From Ectocarpus siliculosus (Eukaryota > Sar > Phaeophyceae > Ectocarpales > Ectocarpaceae): DNA of 64,000 nt. Positions within the stretch are counted from its first letter, which is position 1. Each line of letters begins with the position of its first letter. Of this stretch, positions 15,390 to 54,900 are shown piece after piece. Location: the NCBI GenBank assembly GCA_000310025.1, contig FN649749.1, positions 212,217 through 276,216 of the forward strand, written 5' to 3'. A program made the translations under genes and the position numbers. The notes beneath the pieces are model-generated. The model had not been told where the DNA came from, did no database searches, and worked only from the letters and a program-made list of their open reading frames with translations.

Positions 15390-17797
15390 ATGTTTTCATT
15401 CGGCCAGCACGTGCGTGCGCACGTGAACAGCATCGAGGAGCGTCAAAGGCGAACGCTCTCGGATGTATCCAACTCCGCGGGCAACGCGAACAACGAGAGC
15501 AGCGGCAGGGCTGCAAGGCAACCACAGCAGCAACAGCAGGGGAAGAATAACCCAACGCTCGAGACCCAGGAAGCTTTTCTACAGGTGTGCTTGCGTGCGT
15601 GCTGCAGGGGGAGAGCAACGAATGCGGATGTTGCCCTCTCTGTTGGTTCGAGGCTTCCGCTCTGAGTGCGTACGTAAAGCTTTTGGTTGGGCGCAACGGC
15701 ACAATTTGAAATCTCCTGGCAAGGTTCCACCTGCATCAAGGCGCATGGTGGTCACACAAACGAACTCGAGGTCGGGCTTATCCCCAAGCAAAGCAGTACA
15801 TCGCGACATCGTCCGCTGAATTCCTAGCGCTATTGACCCCAGCATATGCCCGTGCACAATCCCAAGAACTTGCCCTGGTGAACCCAGCGTAGCAGAGAGG
15901 GGACACAGCACACAGCACACAGCCCACACAACGGCAGAAACGGCCGTTTCCATCAGCATCGTTATTTCCAGTTATTTCGTTATTTCAACCATCCCTGATG
16001 TCCGATACCCCGAAACTATGTAGCAGTCAATCCATGCGCGTCGTATGGCATGCATATTGACTGGTAGGTATATCTGACTGGTTACATCTCAAGTCCGGCC
16101 TAGCCTCGTTTCTTCTTGTAGTTCCTCTGCCTTTTTTATTTTGAAAGATTCTGTTGAAAGCGTTTATGTAGTCTTAATAGATTTGTAGTATTGTAGTAGA
16201 ATGGATTCCGTACGTTGCAGAAGATACCACCTGGTCCGATTTTCAAAGCTCGAGTGCTCTGTAGCAAGAGTGACTTTTGGCAAAACTGGCGGACCACGTC
16301 GTTATTTTTGTCGATGACCCCGTGCGACTTCACTGGTTTTCATGTGTCTTCGGAATGTAGAATATATATAGGGAAACAGCAGTACATCCACATCACCCCT
16401 CTCTTTTTTTTCCGCCGAAAGTCCCTCGGTAAAGCAGACTATTGGCGCACCCTCAACCGTCGTTACATCTGTCATCCACACGTGCATCCAACGTGTTCAT
16501 CTAAATATCTTTATCTCGCAATATCACCAGGCGGCGATGCCTCCGGCGACTCACATGTCGTACGAAGACTTCGAGCTCAAGCGTCGACAGCAATATTTCG
16601 AGCTTCAGCGCCGCCAGCAGGAGCTAGAGAGCCTGGTCAAGCTCCTGCAGGAGCAGAACCACCAGCTGCGAAGGGAGAACGACAGGACGCTTGAGATAGA
16701 AGAGCTGCAACGGGAGCAAAGATCCGAAAGCACGCAGGTAGCTCTGGGCCCCGACAGCACGGAAGTAGCAAGCTTGCGGAGCGAAGTAGCGACCGCGCGC
16801 GGTGAAGCTTCCAAGGCTACGGCTTCTGCCGCTACCGCTAGTCGAGCCGCAGCCAGCGCGGAGGCGGCAGCTGCTGAATGGAGGGCAGAGCTGAACGTGT
16901 TGAGAAAACAGCAGGCGGGATCGACGTCGGAGTGGAAGAGGGAGGCGGCCGTTTTGGAGCATCGGGTCGCGGCCTGGCGGCGGCACGCGCAGGAGCAAGA
17001 GCGGCAGGTCAAGGCTCTGAGAGAGCAGGTGGGGCGGTGAAAGTGGCCTGGCCTATCGAAGGTCTTGTTTTGGCCCCTGCCCACCCCCACCATGGACGAA
17101 TCTTGCCCCTGAAGTGCTTTGTTGTTTCTCAGCGGGAAGTTACCGTTGCCACCCACGTGGTGTTGGAAACATCCTATCGCAAGAATAAGATTCTATTTAG
17201 CCGTAGGAACATATGAGGTGATGACCAGGCGAACGTAATCTCCAATTCTACAAGTAAAAACTCGCAGCCTTTTTTTCCGAGACGTACTACAACGCTTCGT
17301 TTGTCATGTTGTAGCCTGGTTCCTGTCTCATTGTCATTTTTTTGTCTCAGCAACAAGTCCGACGGATTATAGATGTATGGATACAGAAGTTAGATGGCTA
17401 CATATCGCAGGATTGAGTCAATTGCTTCGATCAACCCGAAAGGAGATGGGCGGAAATAGTTTACGCCGTCCTCGATAAAAGCCATCCAACTGTTGGCTAG
17501 GTGCCGACTCATGTCGGTGCAGGCTCTCACTTTGGTGTCTTTGTGTCGCGATGCCCCGTTGCTTACATTTCGTCGCCGAAAATGTATCTCGTCCGTGTGC
17601 AACTGGTTGTGATTGGTTCTTTCATTACTTCGTTTTTGCCCTCAACTGCAGCTGGTCGGTAGTAGTAGCGCTCACAGCGCGTGCGGGGGAGGGGTGATTC
17701 GTTTCGAAAAGCAACAACGACGCTGCTGCTGACTGCCTGTCGAATCGTCCGTGGCTGACACACAAACAGCTGGCACACTCCGAGCAGCAGCGGCGAC

Positions 17798-17861
<64 letters not shown>

Positions 17862-20800
17862 ACAGCAGCAACAGCGGCAGCAGCAGCGGTACAGCACTCA
17901 GGGATGTGATCGAGAGAGGCAGAGAGCACGAGAGAGAGAGGGCGTTGCCACGGCGGACGCTATTGTGAAGGAAGTCGTGCTCAACCGGTTTTTCGGGGGT
18001 AGCGTGAAACCAGCAACGGACGCGCAGGAGTGCTTCTTCGGGGGTAGGGTAAAGGTTAAGAAGACAGCGACGGGCAAGGGGGAGGCAGAGAGACTCAGGG
18101 CAGCTAAGAAACCGGTGGCGGAGGTGGTGACTCTAAGGAAGGAGGCGGAGCGTAAGGTGGGTGAAGGGTAAAGGTTGGGTGCGTGTTTCGGTGAGGTCGT
18201 ATAGCACGGTTGAAGAGATGCATCATCGGGGCGGGAACGGAACGGTGTTTCTTGGGGGCGAGGGCGTGCGCTCCTGGTGCTGCTTCTGGTGCTGCTGCCT
18301 CCGATTCCGACATTGGTTTTGTTTTATCACAAGAATAACATGCGGGGACAAGCTCGCAGCTAGTGGTTCGCCGTTTTTTGGAGAAGACGGATGTGTATCT
18401 GATTGCTTCCGTTGCTTGTTGGCTTTGTGTTACAACCGTGATTTTGATGGAGCCCTCCAATCTTTCTCCCCTCCCTTCCACCAAACAGCCAACACTTCGA
18501 CTACGGTTGCCGAAAGATTCCCCCATGAACGCAATAACTCGCATTGTAGTTATGGTCACAGCGATGTGTGCTATTTTTGTAGTATGTCTCGAAGGATTTT
18601 TCCTCGCGATTGTGTCACCTCGTAGCAACCCACCTGCGTGATTTTTTGTGCTCTTTGTTGCTTTAATTTGTTTGATAGAGTATTTTATTAGTGTGATGTT
18701 GATGCGCTATCAATATCTTGCTGCTCGTTGTCGTGATGTGTACAACTATTTGCCCCCCGGGGGGGGGGGTTCCCGAATAATATGCCCCGGTCTCCCCCTT
18801 CAGTCCTCCTCCGGAGGTTGAATTTCGCAAAAGACAAGAAGATAAATCCGTTCTCCGGGGGATGACGAATGGGATGGGATGATGGGATGGGGATTACCGT
18901 ATTCTGTGACCATGGTGGAGGTACTGCGATGAGCTGAGGATAGCTTCACATCTGTGAGTACCTCAGCCTCACTGCTGTCTTGTGCTCTGCTTTGGTTTGG
19001 TTTACAGGCGGTGCCGTTTGAGGATCGCGTCGAGGAGCTGGAGAAGGAGCTGTCAGAATCACGCCGGGTACGTAGACACACAGAGAGAAATAGGCAGAGA
19101 GAGGGAGGGAGAGAGAGAGAGAGATAGAGATATTGTAGGGAGGAAAGGGACGAGAGAGAGACAGAGACAGAGAGGGAGGGAGAGAGAGAGACACACACAC
19201 ACACAGACAGAGAGACAGAGATCCTGGTGGCTGGATGGATTGTGTCCGAACAATGAGTTTTGTTCTGTGGCTGCCGTCTCGTACTGGTATGCGCGGTTTT
19301 AGGATAACTGCTGTTGTTCGACGACGCCAAATCAGCGGAGTCACAGTGGCAGTCGGCAAGTACCGGCTCAGTTGTCTTTCCCGTAATAAACCACGGGAGA
19401 TTCATTGACCGCCTGTTCATACATGTGCCGAAGGCCCTTGGGTGAGGGTGGGATGGTTTTGAACAAACAATCACAACGACCACAGCGACAATAACGGCAC
19501 GTTCAAGAGACGGAGTATGTTCAGACTGTACTTGTGGTACGTTTCTCGCGTGTTTCTCTCCCGGCAGGTCTTGAAGCGATCAGATTCAGCAGCGTCCATT
19601 TCGACTGCTTTGTCCGCTGTGTCGTCTTCGACGAGCAATGACGGGGGGGAGGGCGAGGGCGAGAGCGAACACGAGAGCGAGGTAGAGGTACGTACCAGAC
19701 CGATGTTGGCGACATGCCCTCATGTTTCCGCTCTGGACAGACAGTACCAAAGGTGTGCCGCAGTTCTAGCTATTATGGTATCATTCGTAAGAGTATCGCT
19801 TCCAGGTGGTATTTGGTGGGGTACCGCAGAATTATTACCCGTCGGGACGGGGTAGGTTATATGATATATATAAGTCGGTATACGTCCAGCGATAGCGATT
19901 GCTTGACTGCCGCTTTCTATCATGTGCAAAAATATTCGATGGTATGTGTTACGGGCTACGGTGTTGCTTGGCATTGTCTTGCTAAAGGCTACGAGATTCG
20001 TGTACGTGTCCTTCGTGACGAGGTGGGAAGGGAAGGCAGCCGACAGCAAATGCTCTACAGCTCTTTCTTGTCTCCCAAATTTTGGCTTTTTCGCTGCTTC
20101 CCCTGCTGCACTGCCACTGCCACGTGCTATCTTGGTTGACAGTACGACTTATCTCGAACATGCACGATCGTTTCGCTTCGAACGCCTGCCTCTTGTTGTC
20201 ATGCCTCCACGCCCCATTCCTATTGTATGTTGATTGGTTTTGTCGGGGGTGGTCTTAACGGGCAGCTTACATAAAATGACGTCACTCCCACTGGGTACTG
20301 ATGTTGGTGTTCATATTGTCCTCCCCTCTCGTCTACGTGTGCGTTTGTGCATGCATAGGAGGATGTCACGGACACGGACAAACACAAGGACAAGCTGGTG
20401 GAGACGATGACCCTGCTCAAAGACGCCGAGAAGGCAATACGAATGGTAAGGGACGATGGCATGCCATGATTTCATGATTTCTCAACATGTAAGGGCGTCT
20501 GTCGTCCACCGGACATGACTATTAGCTTGATCTTGTGGGTATGACGAACACAGTGGACTTCACCCAGGGTACCTCGTTCCACCTTGTAGGTTTAGTTTTG
20601 TTCCTCCTCGCTCGTTTTTCGTTCCTCCCTTCCTCCCTTCCTTCGTGTGTCCTTCCGTCTTGCACTGTTCCTAATATGTTCTGTATTATGTCCAAACAAA
20701 ACCAAATAAATCGAACCGATTCAGGCACGGGGCGAGCTTGTCGGCAAGAGCGAGCGCTGCAAGCAACAGGTTGGAGAGGTGAGAACATTTGGAGCACAAA

Positions 20801-23800
20801 CGCCGTGTGTATCGTGTATGTATCACGAGGTTTCCCCCCCGAATGGGATCGTGAGAGCACAGCAGTGCCATCAAGGGGTGACACAAGATGAACATGGTGG
20901 TAGCACAGGCGCCGTGCGCTGCATGTTTTTTGTTATGAGAGGGCCGACGATACGGTACACTGCTTGCAGTTGTTCCGGGGCCTACGCGTTGGTGGCAACT
21001 ATGCTACTGAAGAGCTACATCACTTTATTGGAGCGCGGGCCGTGCTTGCTGTGAGTTTCGGATCAAATAGTCGAGCGTAGTTATTCCGGCGGCGGCGTAG
21101 TTGCGAAAGCTGCCAGTTGATTGTTGTTTGTTTCAAGCGTAGTTTCTCGTTCAGCCTCGGTCTGCCTCTAATTTTTTGGCCGTACAACCACCGGCCATTC
21201 GTGTACGAGAGAACCTCAACATCAATGTATGGCCTTGCGTTATTTCCCTCTACTGCTGTTGTATGTGTGTGCGTGTGTTTACCTGTAGGCGGGGTCCTAC
21301 AACCCCGTCTCACGTTTCCACCAGTCCTGCTATCACGCGACGTTTGGGGTATCTCACCCTTCTCCCATCGTCATCACCACACGTGGCCTCATGCGCACTT
21401 TGTTGTTGATGTTCTTCTTTCCAACTGCAACCGCAGGATGCTGTGTCGTTTTGCGAGGCCAATATCACCAACGCAACCGGCGGCTTGGACCACCAGCCCG
21501 GCTGCAGCGCCCCCGCTACGGGCGTGGAATGTGGCAAGGCGAGGCCGCTGGTCAGTGGCCTCGAGGAAGGGGCGGGGGAGGGCAGCGCCATGGAGGCGAT
21601 GGCGACAACCGCAGACAAGTCTGGTGGGGAAGGGGAAGGGGAAGGGCAGGACATGTCGGCCAAGGTCGCGAAGATGCAGGCAGAGGTGCGTGCGCCTGGT
21701 TTTGGATTGGCTGCTTTATTGCTGTAAGCGTTGTGTTCTTAGTTTTGTGTCGCACGTGATGATGACACAATATATTAGTGATTAATCGTGTAGAGCATCT
21801 ATTTACCCGCTCGGCGGGCGCGAACTATCGGCGAAGCCGCAACGATGTAGATGTCATCGGCAGGCCTGCCCGACGTTGCTTGCACGCATGTCAAGCCTTC
21901 GTCAAGGTTCTGTGTATAGCCGTGAGGTTTCATCCTGTTTGTGACCCATGGTTTGGGTGCACGTCGAGATGTGATGTTGTGGGTCGACCAAGGTGTCGCT
22001 TCAGGTGTTGTCTGCGTTGTTGTGAGTACGATGTGTTGGCAGCTACATGTAGCTCGTGTCGACGGACGAAGGCAGCCGCGTGCGAGAACAGGTGGCTGTG
22101 GTGCTTGGTCCGTGAGCACTGCTATCGCTTCAAAGCTGCACCTGTACTGTAACTAGGCACGTCAGAAGCCCCGAACACCCAAAGATTTTGCTCATCATGC
22201 TCTCTTGTCTTTACCTCCAATATTCCCGTCGGGGCGACTTAGCCAATAATCCACAAGCGCACAGGATGGTCGGCCCAATGAGATATATCATCCTGAGAAG
22301 GATCAAGAATGAGACAGACAGACAGACCTAACCAACACAACGCACGTATGCTGCGCTTTGGACGAATGTTCGCGGTGTGAGCACAGCTGGATGGCCTGCA
22401 CGCGGTGCTAGACAACCTGTCGGCCGAGAGGGCGGCCGCCGCGCTTGGGGGAGCCGTGGCTGGGAGGGAAAGGGAAGCCAACGGAGTGGACCTGTCGGGC
22501 AAGATTGAAGCGATGCAAGCAGAGGTACAGCAGTAGGCAAGGTTGTTGGTCTCGACCCGATCTCCCGGACAATTTTATCACAAACCGACATCTCTTGGGT
22601 GTTTCGTGCCAAGGTATATTAAACACGTTTGTTGAGGGGTGATCTCCGGAGAAGAGAAGTTGGCTTTGTTTGTTGGTGTGTTTTGTTTTCATTTGTGCGT
22701 GTTTTGTGTGAAATGAGCAAGCGAACCACACCTCTATGTAGACTCCAGGCTCTGATAGTCGTGCCTGCGGACCTGCTGCTGACGTGTGGTCCTGCCTCCC
22801 ATGTCTGGCACCCGAATCGCCCGATTGCAGTGAATCAGGCCTCTGATTTTGATCTGCAGGCTCTAAAATTGCCTTCCCCCAGAAATTTGTTGTCGACGTG
22901 TACGTGCAACACACTGATCGTGTCCATCTCTTTTGATTTCATGCAAGTACTCGGGTCTGGACAAATTTCCGTACAGTACACAGTTAGGCGTAACGGCTGC
23001 GGGGCACGCAGATAGTACTTCCTTCCGCGGTCCACCCACGCCTATGCCAAGTCATGCCCATAGCTCGTAGTATCGCACCACATCGCAGCGTGCGTTTGGT
23101 TTCGTCCCCCGCGACACTTCCGTCTGCTGTGCGTGTCTCTGGTGCTCGCTTGCTATCAATAAGTTGGACAAGGTGCTCCTGATATTAAGGAGGGAAGGCG
23201 TGTCTGGCGAGAGGGATGCTGCCCTCGAGGACCCCGGACCCGGTGGTGGTGCAGCGCAGGGTGCCTTCAACGATAGACCGACGAAGGGTTACGCCAGGGA
23301 GACCGCCACCGGTTCGGGGAAGCAGAAACAGAGCCAGGGAGAGGTGAAGGTGCTGAGAAGCTGCCACAAGCGGCGGGACCAGGTAAGGCGACCTTGTGTT
23401 GGCGTGCTTTTGTTGTAATGGCGGGGTGATCTCTTATGTTTCCGCGTTCTTGTTTTTTGTTTCGTGAAGGGGGAGGGTTGATGAGATGAGGGAGTGTTAC
23501 GCTTCCGCGGAGAGGCTTTGCTGTGGCCAGCTACCCACCTCAGTTGAATGTGGACGGGAAGGGGCTGGTCTCCGTTCATCTCGTTGCAGAGAGGGATGTA
23601 GCTATTGCTCGAGTCGATCGTTGGTCGAACGACCGAGTAAAGACGGCATTCCGTTCTCAAGCCAATCTCTCGAACCTGAGTATTTCGTTGGACTGGCTTC
23701 GCGGGGGTTTTACTTTTAAAATATGTGTATGTATTAGAGAGGGGTGTTTCGTATCCTTACCCCTATCGTTAACCCCCACCCCGTAGCCCCCATTAAATCC

Positions 23801-23968
23801 AAGCTTGGTACCTCGCGAAGTCTACTGATTTCTATTCCCCGTTGTGGTTGTCCCATTTTCACGCAGGTGAGACCGGAGAGGCGGGAGGGTCGAGGGGAGA
23901 GCGAGGAAAGGATATCGATGGCGGCCCACTTCGGCTACCCCAGCTGTATATACCAGCCCTTCTTATGA
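15390..23968 (+). CDS. Coiled-coil, polyglutamine protein; all introns phase 0
   Basis: Eleven exons: 15390-15584, 16531-17028, 17770-18156, 19008-19067, 19568-19687, 20359-20445, 20725-20778, 21437-21685, 22387-22524, 23164-23382 and 23867-23968. Each length is a multiple of three, so all ten introns are phase 0; the product is about 702 residues. Exon 1 starts M-F-S-F-G-Q-H-V. Exon 2 is a long coiled coil (L-Q-R-R-Q-Q-E-L-E-S-L-V-K-L-L-Q-E-Q) with an alanine-rich middle. Exon 3 has 25 uninterrupted glutamines, then a basic and acidic helix. Exons 4-7 are short helical modules such as R-V-E-E-L-E-K-E-L-S-E-S-R-R. Exons 8 and 9 end alike (K-M-Q-A-E and A-M-Q-A-E), and exons 9 and 10 both start L-D, suggesting exon duplication. 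There is no signal peptide or membrane span. I know no named family; a scaffold or cytoskeletal role is inference only. Confidence 0.75.
17800..17874 (+). repeat. CAG/CAA glutamine-coding microsatellite
   Basis: There are 25 consecutive CAG or CAA codons in frame inside exon 3 of the coiled-coil gene. The CAA interruptions lie at the start and towards the 3' end; the middle is pure CAG. It is followed by an R-Q-Q-Q-R segment. A pure CAG run of this length is expected to vary between strains. Confidence 0.95.
19069..19225. repeat. GA/CA microsatellite in an intron
   Basis: A purine-rich run of GAGA, GGGA and ACAC units starts immediately after the exon 4 donor of the coiled-coil gene. It is simple-sequence DNA with no coding content. 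Confidence 0.9.
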
Positions 23969-31419: not shown

Positions 31420-33822
31420 TCATCGGTGTTGGATCGTCGCCCAGCCTGCCGCTGCCGGCTTCGTGGGCTTCTTCTTCTGGTTTCGCCGCCACCAAAACAG
31501 AGCCAAGCTACAGGCCACAACTGCGGCATACACCCCGCCGACCTGCCAGTCCAGCAGCCGACAGACGAAACGCAACGAACACAAGTGATGTCGAGACAAA
31601 ACCAGATGGAAAGAACAACAGCAGATGGTAGATGACAGCATTGATAGAGGGGGCAACACGAAAATAAGGACAAAGAAAGGGGGTGCACTCTTACTCGTAG
31701 TCGTGCATGCATGCCGTAGTCGTTAGACCATTGACCTCGCACCCCTACAAAGCCGGGACGGACCACGCCGGGTTCTCACCGGACCAGGCTCTCACATCAA
31801 CAAGCGCGAAGCGCCGTGGGGTACTCGGCGAGGTGCATGGAGGGTGCGCTGCATCCTGTTAAGGGTGTTCGGCATCTTCTGCTTACTCCTTGCATACGGA
31901 TGACAGCTGCGAATGACAAAAGTTCTATTTTCTGGTGCTTTCACCTCCAGAGACAGTTATAAGCACTGTGTAACTGCCTCGAGGGTGCTTGACCAATTTA
32001 ACACAACGTAGAGGTATCACCCCCTTTGCGCGGAATGAGGGTTCTCGACCCCGCACAACATAATCTACTCGACCACCATTGTGGTTACCGCAAAAAAAGA
32101 GGCAAAAAAAAGCGGTAACCTGGTTGTCGAACTCACGAAACGATCGGCGTGTCTTACAACGTCGTTGCCAAACGACGAAAACCCAACCCCGATGGCAAAC
32201 ACCGGGGCGGGGGGGAGGGGGTGATGTGTGGGGCGTGGAGCGACGCGAACATCGGAGACAGCGGGGACAGGACAACTGTACCCGTCGTGAACCACTACCA
32301 AAAGTCGTGCACGGAGCCCTAAAACGAAAACCAAAAAAGACCTTTGATTGCACAACGTTTCCAAAGTCTCACCAAGCCCACGCCGAAGCCGTCTAGTACG
32401 GGTATTGGGTTCTTGTCGCTCACGTCCACGTCGATCGAGCCTCCTCCCGAGCATGCTTGCACACAGTAGTCGCACCTGCCGCACCACCAAACAACCGACT
32501 CAACCCAATAAACAAAAAACGAATTGGTTTGGAACAACACACCCCGCCAAGAAGATCGACCACCGAACCCACAGTAGAACATCGGAAGGGAACGTGGAGA
32601 GCCACGGGAAGCCCAAGAATACAACATGCTGACCAATAAACAGCCGACAATGCACCTGCTGCTTTTACCACAGCCTTGAGGGCGTGAAAAAAAGGTGAAG
32701 ATCGCACTTGGCGTAAAGAAAAGTGTAACACGGCACACGGGAGTAACGGAATCAGAAAATCGCGTCCAAGATAAATATACTACGAGGTAGAGAGTAGACA
32801 ATACTTGTAGAGTTGCACAGAAAATAAGGCAACGCTTGGTCATGCCGTGCGGCATAAAGTGCTACAGTATCCTTCCCACGAGGAGAAAGGGATTTTTTTC
32901 TTACGACAGATGAACCGCTTTTATCGCAAGCAAGGTGCACCGCGTGTGCCTCGGTTCGTGCAATCAAAAAGTTGACATGACACAAGACACCACACCCCGT
33001 GAAACGGTTTTTACAGCTCGATTTTTCCACAACATAAAGCGTGACAGCGCCGAAAACGGCGGCATTGAAGCTGTCTCATCGAGAAATTCCCGAAAATGTC
33101 TCGCTTCATGTATGCATCCTCTTCGCCGTCGGGTAATCGAGCTTGGAAATCGCGACAGGGTGTGTGGTACCTTGTGCTACCTACGGTAGGTTTTGCAAAT
33201 GAAAGCCTACATGTTGTTCGACCATGCCCGAGAGATGAGGGAAACACGCCGACCGAGCCAACAGGGCCTGTACAAGGACAAGAGAGTGACCCACGACATT
33301 CACGCGGAATCGGTTCTTCAAATCAAGGAAGGTCTCACGTGCAAGAAATGATGTCTTCCCTCTTGGGTGGGTATGCGAAAGGAATCGTCGAGCTCCCCGG
33401 ATCGAAGAACGAGTCGCACGCGAGCGTGTCGAAGGACATAGAAGAAGACTCAGAGGAAGCAGTCGGCGCAGATGCTGCGGCTTGTGGGTCGTCTTTCCTT
33501 TCCGTAGCACGCACATCAAGACCTCCGCTCACGGGTAAGCGCTTGTTTCCACACGGGGACTCTGCGCTCGCGTTCGCTGATAACACGTGCAAGAACAATC
33601 AACACGGGGTAGAGTCATCAAAGGCCGAAGAGCGACCAGAGAAGGACGACTAGACCTTGCGCATTTGGCGTCGGGTCGTGATGTTGCTATTGTATGGGTT
33701 CCTGCAAAACCAACTCAACGAATGGAGGGTTATGGTGAAAATAGCACATCATTGTCCCGAACGAAGGCGAGTCAAGTCGCCGTTGCAGCACAGGCAGAGC
33801 GACCGCTATTCCCCTGCAACCA

Positions 33823-38814: not shown

Positions 38815-39334
38815 ATGGCGGGGCCAAGGAAGGGGAGAGGACGGGGGCTCGCCGCAGAGGGGCGGGGGTGAGAGGAGGAGGTCGTTGAGCCAGGGTGAGC
38901 GACGGGTGACCAGTGTAGAGGGCACGGGGACTTTGAGGATTGAGTCACGTCTATCGCCGTCCGCGTATTCAGGGGGGAGAGCGCGCCACTGAAGACCTAG
39001 GCAGACGCGTTCCAATTCCCCAATGGTAGCTAGGCGCGACCAGTCTACTTACGTCAGCTGACCATCAACTGACGTAAGTAGACTGGATCAGCTGACGTAA
39101 GTAGACTGGTCGCGCCTAGCTACCATTGGGGAATTGGAACGCGTCTGCCTAGGTCTTGAGTGGCGTGCTCTCCCCCCTGAATACGCGGACGGCGATAGAC
39201 GTGACTCAATCCTCAAAGTCCCCGTGCCCTCTACACTGGTCACCCGTCGCTCACCCTGGCTCAACGACCTCCTCCTCTCACCCCCGCCCCTCTGCGGCGA
39301 GCCCCCGTCCTCTCCCCTTCCTTGGCCCCGCCAT
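38815..39334. repeat. Near-perfect palindrome, 247-base arms
   Basis: The left arm 38815-39061 is the reverse complement of 39088-39334 with very few differences, around a 26-base spacer. The spacer itself holds a third, partial copy of the arm end (GACGTAAGTAGACTGG). The arms are far more alike than the surrounding outer repeats, so this palindrome is younger or has been homogenised by gene conversion. Confidence 0.9.
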
Positions 39335-51931: not shown

Positions 51932-54900
51932 TCAACACGCAGGCTCTGCGTCCGAGTCTGTGGTGAAGCACGAGGTAGTTTTAACAATTGGTTCCAAGAA
52001 GCTCTCCACCTCGTTGTCTCTGTATGTCGTGTCGTCGCACCCTTCGAACCTTGTGAACAACGTTAAAGGACCAGGATCATGGGTGGAGGCAGAGAGTAAG
52101 CGGGGGAAACAATGCTTCAAGAAGCTGGCTCCTAGCAGCGGCCTAGTAGGGGCATAGACCTCGAGTGTCAACAAGGCCTATATATTAGTGTTTTGGCTGG
52201 CACCTTGCCGAGTTGTCTTGTTTTCTGGTTGGACAGAATAAATCTCTTGACAGGGAGCTAGACCTACTCTCCTAGGTTCTTGTACTTTCTTGTAGGAAGA
52301 ACGTTACCGTAAGAATACCAGAGTTTTTCCCGAACGATTGATTGATGCAATATTTCTGGGTTAGCCAGCTACTTCGCGGAGTGCTGTGTTGGGGAAGTCA
52401 ACGCGGTTTTCCAAAAAAGCACCTCATATTCTAACATCCCTCGGTGCCATGCGTCACCGTGTCACGTAAGGCGCCACGTGTGTCACGTAACAGTATCGGT
52501 GAAGAGCTCATCGGCATCACAGTGGCATCATTTCATTCATCACTCACGATATTGTGGCTGCGGAGGAGATGCGATTGTTGACGATGAAGATCGACTTGGC
52601 GTCCTTCAGCTTGATGGACTCCAAGTAAGTGCCACTCAAATAATTCCTCCTGTGTGCATGCGAGACACGTTTTAACGCTTCAGGACATCCGCCCGAACAA
52701 GTCACCATCGCCCAACAACATATTGAGCATGAGCTACTCACAAAATCATGCAACTGGCTAGAGCAGAAAGAGGCTAATCCTTTCCACCCTCCGCCTGATC
52801 TGGAGATGACCACGGCACAGAGATCAAACGAGGCACTACCCAGTAGAGAACTACAGGGGATGTATTGTAAAATGTAAGTTACCTATACAGATGTTTTTTG
52901 TACTTAGCGCCAGCTGGCATCACTGATATAAATCATCAGTGTAAAGACTTAAAAAGACTCGAAATAAGCCCAGTACCCAGCCGGTTTTCCTCCACTCACT
53001 GAAAAGAATCCACCACATCCCGTTCGACTGTGGGTATATCTCGAATGGGTAGTCTTTCTGTGTGTGTATTTATTATTCCTTAATTTACGGACAATGCCAT
53101 GACATTTCGACTCATGTGACGATGCCCACAGTGCACCGTTCCCTGCAACGGCAGCAAAGAAAGTGCGACCAACCATATGCATAGTACAACAAGCGCATGC
53201 GATAGAGAATATCCACAGCTCTTTGAGCATGTTCCTGTGTCAAGCCAGTGTCAAGCAAGCCATGTGACGCCCTTACCAGAAAACGATCCCATCGGAAAGT
53301 CCGTCTGAGCCTTCCACATCTGGTAAGTCAGATCCCACATCTGACAAGGGCGGGCGGGGAGCACATACATACGTTAGTACGTGTGACGCAAGCGTCATCT
53401 ATCTCATGAGACAACACATGGGCATGCACATACCCACGCAAAAATATACCTTGGCTCGTTTGTGCCCGTGGAGCAAACAGAACAGAGGTACGTGTTTGTT
53501 GCGTGCATAACAGCAGCTCGTCATTTCTAAAAGGCAGGTGTGTAGATGTGAACACTGTTTGAGAGCCGATCTCTCTGTTTACGAGGAGTCTGCGTTGACC
53601 CTAAAACACCACAAGACGCAGGGCACACGTTTCTCTTCTCTTCTTCTTGTCTGTTGGGGTCGGAAAAATATGTCAACCAGAGACGTCACTTTCGTTTCAA
53701 ACCGGCATCGCAGAGGGATCGTGTGATTTCCTGAAGAAAAAAAAAAACAGTGTACGGGATCGCGCGGGGCACTGTTGTACCCTCCCAGAGATGAGAATGG
53801 CTCTTCGGGTTTGACATCTTATTATATGCCGCGTCCAACGTACAAGCGAACAGAAGAGAAGAGAAAAGCGTGAGCCCTGCGTCTTGTGGTGTTTTCGAGT
53901 CGACACAGACTGCTCGGAAAACAGCGACGAACGCTTCAACAGTCTTCAGATCAAGCCACCTATAGACAAGCAACACAGCGGGATCGTACGGACGCACTGC
54001 CGCTCTGGTACCATTCTTCAGAGGACACGACGCCTGCTGCACCGAAAACGACGACCGACAAGCTTTTGCCCTGCCAAAGGGTGCTTCTACCAGTGGTACG
54101 CAGAAACAAGGACGAGACTTGTTTCGAACCTTCCGCGAATGCTTCTTCTGCTGTGCCCACCAGATACGCACCAACTAGGGCCCTACATCAACGACGCCCC
54201 CGGCATGAACTCAATCACGATCGACAGACAGACAGTACTCACAGGTAAAAATGTTGTAGCGGTAGGACTTGTTCAGNNNNNNNNNNNNNNNNNNNNNNNN
54301 NNNNNNNNNNNNNNNNNNNNNNNNNNNNNNNNNNNNNNNNNNNNNNNNNNNNNNNNNNNNNNNNNNNNNNNNNNNNNNNNNNNNNNNNNNNNNNNNNNNN
54401 NNNNNNNNNNNNNNNNNNNNNNNNNNNNNNNNNNNNNNNNNNNNNNNNNNNNNNNNNNNNNNNNNNNNNNNNNNNNNNNNNNNNNNNNNNNNNNNNNNNN
54501 NNNNNNNNNNNNNNNNNNNNNNNNNNNNNNNNNNNNNNNNNNNNNNNNNNNNNNNNNNNNNNNNNNNNNNNNNNNNNNNNNNNNNNNNNNNNNNNNNNNN
54601 NNNNNNNNNNNNNNNNNNNNNNNNNNNNNNNNNNNNNNNNNNNNNNNNNNNNNNNNNNNNNNNNNNNNNNNNNNNNNNNNNNNNNNNNNNNNNNNNNNNN
54701 NNNNNNNNNNNNNNNNNNNNNNNNNNNNNNNNNNNNNNNNNNNNNNTCGCTTCGTACCTTCTTCCGAAGGGTTGCCTCCTCCCTAATCTCTAGCATCTCC
54801 TTGACTTTCGTCTTGAACCCCCCAAGCCCTTCCGTGTCCAACGTCTCCTCCTCGTCTCCTATCTCCTTCCAAACCTTCTCTACCACCTTGTCCCATCTGA

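Follow-up and report, generated by a model that had tools for sequence, protein, structure and literature searches.

The ROCO (LRR-ROC-COR) genes of brown algae carry LRR exons that, in the part of the published account that deals with exon structure, are described as uniformly 72 bp long and of phase 2, as encoding one LRR each and as being alternatively spliced (PMC11378527). The NB-TPR genes are cited in the same account as other brown-algal receptors that have undergone exon shuffling. A gene of Ectocarpus siliculosus, on the forward strand at positions 15390-23968 of the window (the whole stretch of 64,000 nt that was analysed), has introns that all lie in phase 0, and an initial annotation had read it as a scaffold assembled by exon shuffling. 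Our analysis suggests an alternative: this is very probably an ordinary coiled-coil gene, a shorter and diverged copy, with a phase-0 pattern that was inherited and that reflects a preference of the genome for phase 0. The older coiled-coil gene from which it would derive has its other copy on contig C15 of the same genome. A gene made only of symmetric exons resembles a product of shuffling, and the caution to be drawn here is that one paralogue suffices to point to inheritance.

Gene model and splice sites

When rebuilt from the sequence, the gene has 11 exons of 65, 166, 129, 20, 40, 29, 18, 83, 46, 73 and 33 codons in order, the last followed by the stop, each divisible by three, and its product has 702 residues; this exact rebuild confirms the annotated structure of 11 exons of 18 to 166 codons. 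The ten introns (279-946 nt, mean 647 nt) are all GT-AG and all of phase 0, and the nine internal exons are all 0-0. We also rescored the GT-AG pairs lying up to 45 nt from each junction, keeping both flanking exons open in the frame of the model, with a scorer whose weights are our own approximation of the splice consensus and were not trained on the Ectocarpus siliculosus genome. A phase-0 pair ranks first at all ten introns, in agreement with the claim that every intron is of phase 0, and the pair used in the model itself ranks first at eight of them. At the other two, introns 2 and 6, a different in-frame acceptor 21 or 45 nt downstream outscores that of the model (6.1 vs 5.3) or ties with it (5.5). 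The best pair of any other phase is much weaker or absent, except at intron 9, the weakest splice pair of the gene (0.9 vs 0.1).

As a separate observation on exon 3, its CAG run (17797-17836) is 78% complementary to a CTG-rich stretch at 18270-18309, 433 nt downstream in intron 3, and the two could pair in the transcript.

A collinear paralogue and its shared introns

The size of the genome (189 Mb, 492 contigs) and its intron lengths are in keeping with a brown alga. A protein search of this genome with the window product, at E <= 1 and with 63 of 1116 candidates scored, gave 43 matches. Beyond the gene itself, these fall within residues 132-310, an Ala-rich coil with polyQ, and at one place on contig C15, which matches residues 549-597 at 64% identity (E 3.5e-5). 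When positions 15390-15990 were searched as DNA, a different contig gave a CAG-rich match of 47 nt to exon 1. In exon-wise tblastn, the DNA around the C15 match contains collinear matches to several exons of the window gene. The paralogue there (C15:2311620-2327294, forward strand) was modelled by hand, with the window gene already known, as 19 exons that encode 846 residues. In order, its first eight introns are of phases 1, 2, 0, 0, 0, 2, 0 and 2, and the last ten are all of phase 0, which makes 14 of 18 in phase 0. In the rescoring, the splice pair used for this model comes first at 12 of the 18 introns; at five it comes second or third, always behind pairs of the same phase. Intron 7, at C15:2316788, has an apparent GC donor (GAG|GCAAGT) and is probably a GC-AG intron, which a GT-only scorer is unable to list; a GT alternative of the same phase lies 33 nt downstream, and the best GT pair there is of phase 0.

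The two products resemble each other more than composition would explain. In blastp without the low-complexity filter, window residues 420-670 align with the paralogue at 38% identity in 253 columns (E = 8e-26). The whole-length alignment scores 527, and shuffling the window protein 200 times gave no score above 162. When the genome was searched with the C15 protein, all 48 candidates were scored and 17 matches came back; with window residues 430-669, all 9 candidates were scored and 6 matches came back. Both searches brought up these two loci and no other. The genome protein searches as a whole thus gave no relative outside the Ala-rich and polyQ stretch other than the C15 paralogue, with the proviso that very short exons may escape them, as power is low for exons of 18-20 codons and exon 7 recovers even itself only at E 0.04. 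Judged from sequence similarity and from shared intron positions and phases, the window gene and the C15 locus are a two-gene family.

Both ends of the window gene model are uncertain, since neither exon 1 (15390-15584; 65 codons, starting with ATG, its splice pair ranking first) nor exon 11 (23867-23968; 33 codons and the stop) has a convincing counterpart in the paralogue, with 6 identities in 63 aligned residues and 6 in 30, respectively. Exon 2 (16531-17028; 166 codons) is helical and covers the positions of paralogue introns 6-8, and exon 3 (17770-18156; 129 codons), which contains a run of 25 Gln, ends where paralogue exon 10 ends. Exon 4 (19008-19067) corresponds to paralogue exon 11, with 11 of 20 residues identical, and is the only matched exon of equal length in both copies (20 codons). 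Exon 5 (19568-19687; 40 codons, Ser-rich and acidic), exon 6 (20359-20445; 29 codons) and exon 7 (20725-20778; 18 codons) correspond to paralogue exons 12, 13 and 14, of 23, 23 and 14 codons. Exon 8 (21437-21685; 83 codons) and exon 9 (22387-22524; 46 codons) match best, corresponding to paralogue exon 15 (72 codons; 34 of 66 aligned residues identical) and exon 16 (42 codons; 29 of 42 identical), and exon 9 belongs to the duplicated exon set described below. Exon 10 (23164-23382; 73 codons), which has a weak acceptor (AAG), corresponds to paralogue exon 17 (65 codons; 26 of 65 identical).

In an alignment that is blind to introns, six of the ten window introns (3, 4, 6, 8, 9 and 10) have a phase-0 intron of the paralogue at exactly the same position, compared with a maximum of four coincidences and a mean of 0.19 in 100,000 trials of random placement of ten introns. 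The remaining four are less exact. Intron 7, the 3' border of exon 7, is 4 residues off a paralogue intron in the whole-length alignment; intron 5, the 3' border of exon 5, lies in an alignment gap, the nearest aligned residue being 3 off in the whole-length alignment and none being aligned in the later one. Intron 2 is 42 residues off the expected paralogue intron, or 14 with the polyQ removed, and coincides exactly only in the exon-wise tblastn, and intron 1 lies where the alignment is low in identity and unconvincing, with 13 residues between it and the closest intron of the paralogue. As six positions, together with their phases, are common to both genes, they were most simply fixed before the duplication and not drawn anew. 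The intron match also lends support to the middle of a gene model that is otherwise without a family, and the gene pair offers a small case of intron positions kept despite strong divergence of the protein.

The non-phase-0 introns of the paralogue are 1, 2, 6 and 8, all in its N-terminal half. No residues of the window gene align with the part that holds introns 1 and 2. Window exon 2 takes in the positions of introns 7 (window residue 149) and 8 (window residues 182/183), and intron 6 falls on an alignment gap within it. The all-phase-0 pattern of the window gene looks largely inherited from the ancestor that it has in common with the C15 paralogue, because the non-phase-0 introns of the latter lie where the window gene either lacks a counterpart or has the fused exon 2. 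The introns missing from exon 2 may have been lost in the window gene rather than gained in the paralogue, and the window copy may be the one that changed faster.

A comparison of the open frames in 60 kb around the paralogue with the window matched only exon 9 and two other stretches, which we took for repeats, and the possibility that the two copies sit inside a large segmental duplication was rejected for the 60 kb and the window so compared. The stretch at window 31707-32250 resembles C15:2321537-2322595, within paralogue intron 13, with another relative nearby on C15, and is probably a repeat. A second short stretch, at window 52947-53052, is common in translation with C15:2291741-2292202 and has stops in places. 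Elsewhere in the window, nearly the same translation, WRALPPEYADGDRR, is found at 38902-38997 on the reverse strand and at 39152-39247 on the forward strand, about 150 bases apart, and this opposite-strand pair may be part of a transposable element.

Phase preference, exon duplication and alternative explanations

A search of the literature on intron phase in Ectocarpus, brown algae and stramenopiles gave nothing on point at the level of titles and abstracts. We estimated the base rate from the genome itself. The sample is small and covers two families: 20 loci were fetched, 10 of them chaperonin (PF00118) and 10 kinesin (PF00225), using all 64 chaperonin matches and 35 of the 142 kinesin matches, and introns were called between adjacent exon matches. 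Among 79 adjacent pairs, 22 were skipped as too distant or overlapping too much, 11 had no acceptable sites and 46 gave an intron (28 of phase 0, 6 of phase 1 and 12 of phase 2). A score filter dropped nine of these (six of phase 0 and three of phase 1), and the 37 left comprise 22 of phase 0, the commonest, 3 of phase 1 and 12 of phase 2; by family, phase 0 accounts for 17 of 27 introns in the chaperonin genes and 5 of 10 in the kinesin genes.

Introns are reported to prefer AG|G sites, so that protein composition shapes intron phase, as stated in the portions of two earlier papers that bear on this (PMC8001218, PMC1626468). The exons of the window gene end in CAG, GAG or AAG at 8 of 10 junctions. 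Away from the junctions, AG|G sites are in phase 0 in 50 of 77 cases (65%) in the window gene and in 89 of 108 in the paralogue, compared with 79 of 105 (75%) in chaperonin exons, for which 30 of the 64 matches were used. We considered coiled-coil composition as an extra phase bias in the window gene and rejected it, as the AG|G bias of the chaperonin exons is at least as strong; a bias that is not special to the window gene counts against such composition as the cause. The proposed course of events would begin with introns that favour phase 0 in this genome and with AG|G sites that lie mostly at codon ends (GAG, AAG, CAG), both of which together suggest that the ancestral gene probably had mostly phase-0 introns. 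The preference of the genome is likely the reason why it did. The window gene would then have kept the phase-0 part of the ancestral gene.

Signs of duplication within the gene were sought in five exon pairs, namely 15/16, 16/17 and 15/17 of the paralogue and 8/9 and 9/10 of the window gene. Paralogue exons 16 and 17 have their first 30 residues in common (score 92; the best of 2000 shuffles reached 50) and exons 15 and 16 their ends (65; the best of 2000 reached 55), and exons 15 and 17 are not alike (38, a score reached in 182 of 2000 shuffles). Exons 8 and 9 of the window gene still carry the shared ends (54, reached in 1 of 2000 shuffles), and exons 9 and 10 show no shared start (26, reached in 662 of 2000). 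Each of the three exons has its own counterpart in the other copy, and the simplest reading is therefore that the exon set was duplicated before the gene was. There was probably one internal exon duplication before the genes separated, although the window gene on its own shows only half of it. The earlier suggestion that the symmetric exons could be duplicated is to this extent borne out, one symmetric exon having been duplicated in the set that is now paralogue exons 15-17.

That the gene arose by shuffling of symmetric phase-0 modules, with exons serving as skippable cassettes in many isoforms, is nevertheless very unlikely. The nine internal exons are indeed all 0-0, exons of the paralogue have been duplicated in tandem, and relatives of the shortest exons could have escaped our searches at the sensitivity given above for exon 7. 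Against these points, outside residues 132-310 and the 47-nt match to exon 1, our searches led to one further locus, the paralogue, which is collinear and has introns at shared positions; this indicates inheritance. Assembly by exon shuffling is not supported, and apart from the exon duplication nothing that we found points to it. The internal exons, from 18 to 166 codons, differ in length, no two being equal, which sets them apart from the uniform LRR exons described for brown algae (PMC11378527). The lengths of the internal exons modulo 7 are 5, 3, 6, 5, 1, 4, 6, 4 and 3, so none of the nine is a multiple of seven residues, the idea of heptad-sized cassettes was dropped, and skipping any internal exon would keep the frame and shift the coiled-coil register. 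The pattern of the coiled coil also continues from exon 8 into exon 9. A more specific version, in which a lineage-restricted coiled-coil family has exons 4-9 skipped or repeated by cell type and so tunes the reach of a cytoskeletal or organelle tether, seems to us most improbable, and nothing found here favours it. If exons did act as cassettes in this manner, the tandem duplication seen in exons 15-17 of the paralogue would record an instance of it that became fixed.

Could the pattern have no particular history behind it and simply have come about by chance, given the preference of the genome for phase 0? At a rate of 22/37, ten phase-0 introns out of ten have p = 0.0055, and by a rough calculation about 7 genes in the genome should have ten or more introns and none outside phase 0 (0.2-75 when the rate is varied within its 95% interval), assuming a geometric spread of intron number around the 17,418 genes and 6.96 introns per gene that are among the genome figures given for Ectocarpus siliculosus (PMC6418280). 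The 14 of 18 of the paralogue are likewise not unusual at that rate (p = 0.087 for at least 14). Yet the paralogue has six introns at the same positions and in the same phase, which refutes chance as the whole account; it is an unlikely explanation on its own and not a full rival to inheritance, in which the preference of the genome already has its part. A different doubt concerns the gene itself, which could be a decaying pseudogene or a model that joins unrelated open stretches. It is shorter than the paralogue, with a polyQ expansion and ends that have no counterpart, some of its splice sites are weak (that of intron 9 in particular), and the lack of stops is partly built in because the exons were chosen to be open. 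We regard this as highly improbable, given that the exons aligned with the paralogue stay open, exons 8 and 9 best of all, and that six junctions coincide exactly despite an identity of 38% over the best 253 columns.

The protein and its place among known systems

The absence of a recognised family, as first annotated, is upheld, in that neither the window protein nor the paralogue matches any Pfam family at E <= 0.1. Against PDB sequences, the window protein has 14 matches at E <= 1, of which 10 lie in the polyQ stretch and four are cysteine-synthase-like (E 0.02-0.4), the latter being taken as chance, and the paralogue has none at E <= 0.01. Five pattern matches of the paralogue in IMG/VR were followed by no confirmed one.

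Each exon had been thought to form a self-contained module, and two results contradict this. A heptad pattern runs through the exon 8/9 junction, with 7 of 8 core positions hydrophobic and none of 2000 shuffles as good, and exon 2 by itself is modelled as three long helices (11-67, 76-127 and 132-165) in a single-sequence AlphaFold model (mean pLDDT 73.6, pTM 0.37). In the paralogue, the heptad pattern likewise continues across junctions 595 and 637 (p below 0.0005 and 0.001, respectively). The heptad evidence is nevertheless thin, as such a pattern is seen at p < 0.05 against shuffles at only 1 of 10 junctions of the window gene and at 4 of 14 junctions tested in the paralogue. The helical, rod-like character that had been ascribed to the protein is supported in part. 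On present evidence, the locus would be a single nuclear protein-coding gene with a rod-like coiled-coil product that also contains flexible polyQ and acidic stretches. From this anatomy, the protein may dimerise through its coiled coil and serve as a structural linker, spacer or scaffold.

Likeness to long coiled-coil rod proteins as a general class lies in the long helices that are predicted and in a heptad pattern that is clear at some places; a difference is that neither product has a Pfam family at the threshold used above. With the shuffled brown-algal receptors (ROCO and NB-TPR), the window gene has in common symmetric exons of a single phase, which is phase 2 for the ROCO LRR exons as far as the published description of them goes. 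It differs from these receptors in lacking a uniform exon length and a recognised domain, and no related exon set was found elsewhere. Related exons in several genes, looked for in comparison with the ROCO LRR exons, did not appear in our genome searches, which have low power for the shortest exons, scored 63 of 1116 candidates in the search with the whole product, and returned only the collinear C15 paralogue. The C15 paralogue has 19 exons and 846 residues, compared with 11 and 702 in the window gene, four introns outside phase 0, one intron that is probably GC-AG, and about 100 N-terminal and 110 C-terminal residues without a counterpart in the window gene, and it lacks a long Gln run; yet it is alike in its collinear exons and in six introns at exactly shared positions, all of phase 0.
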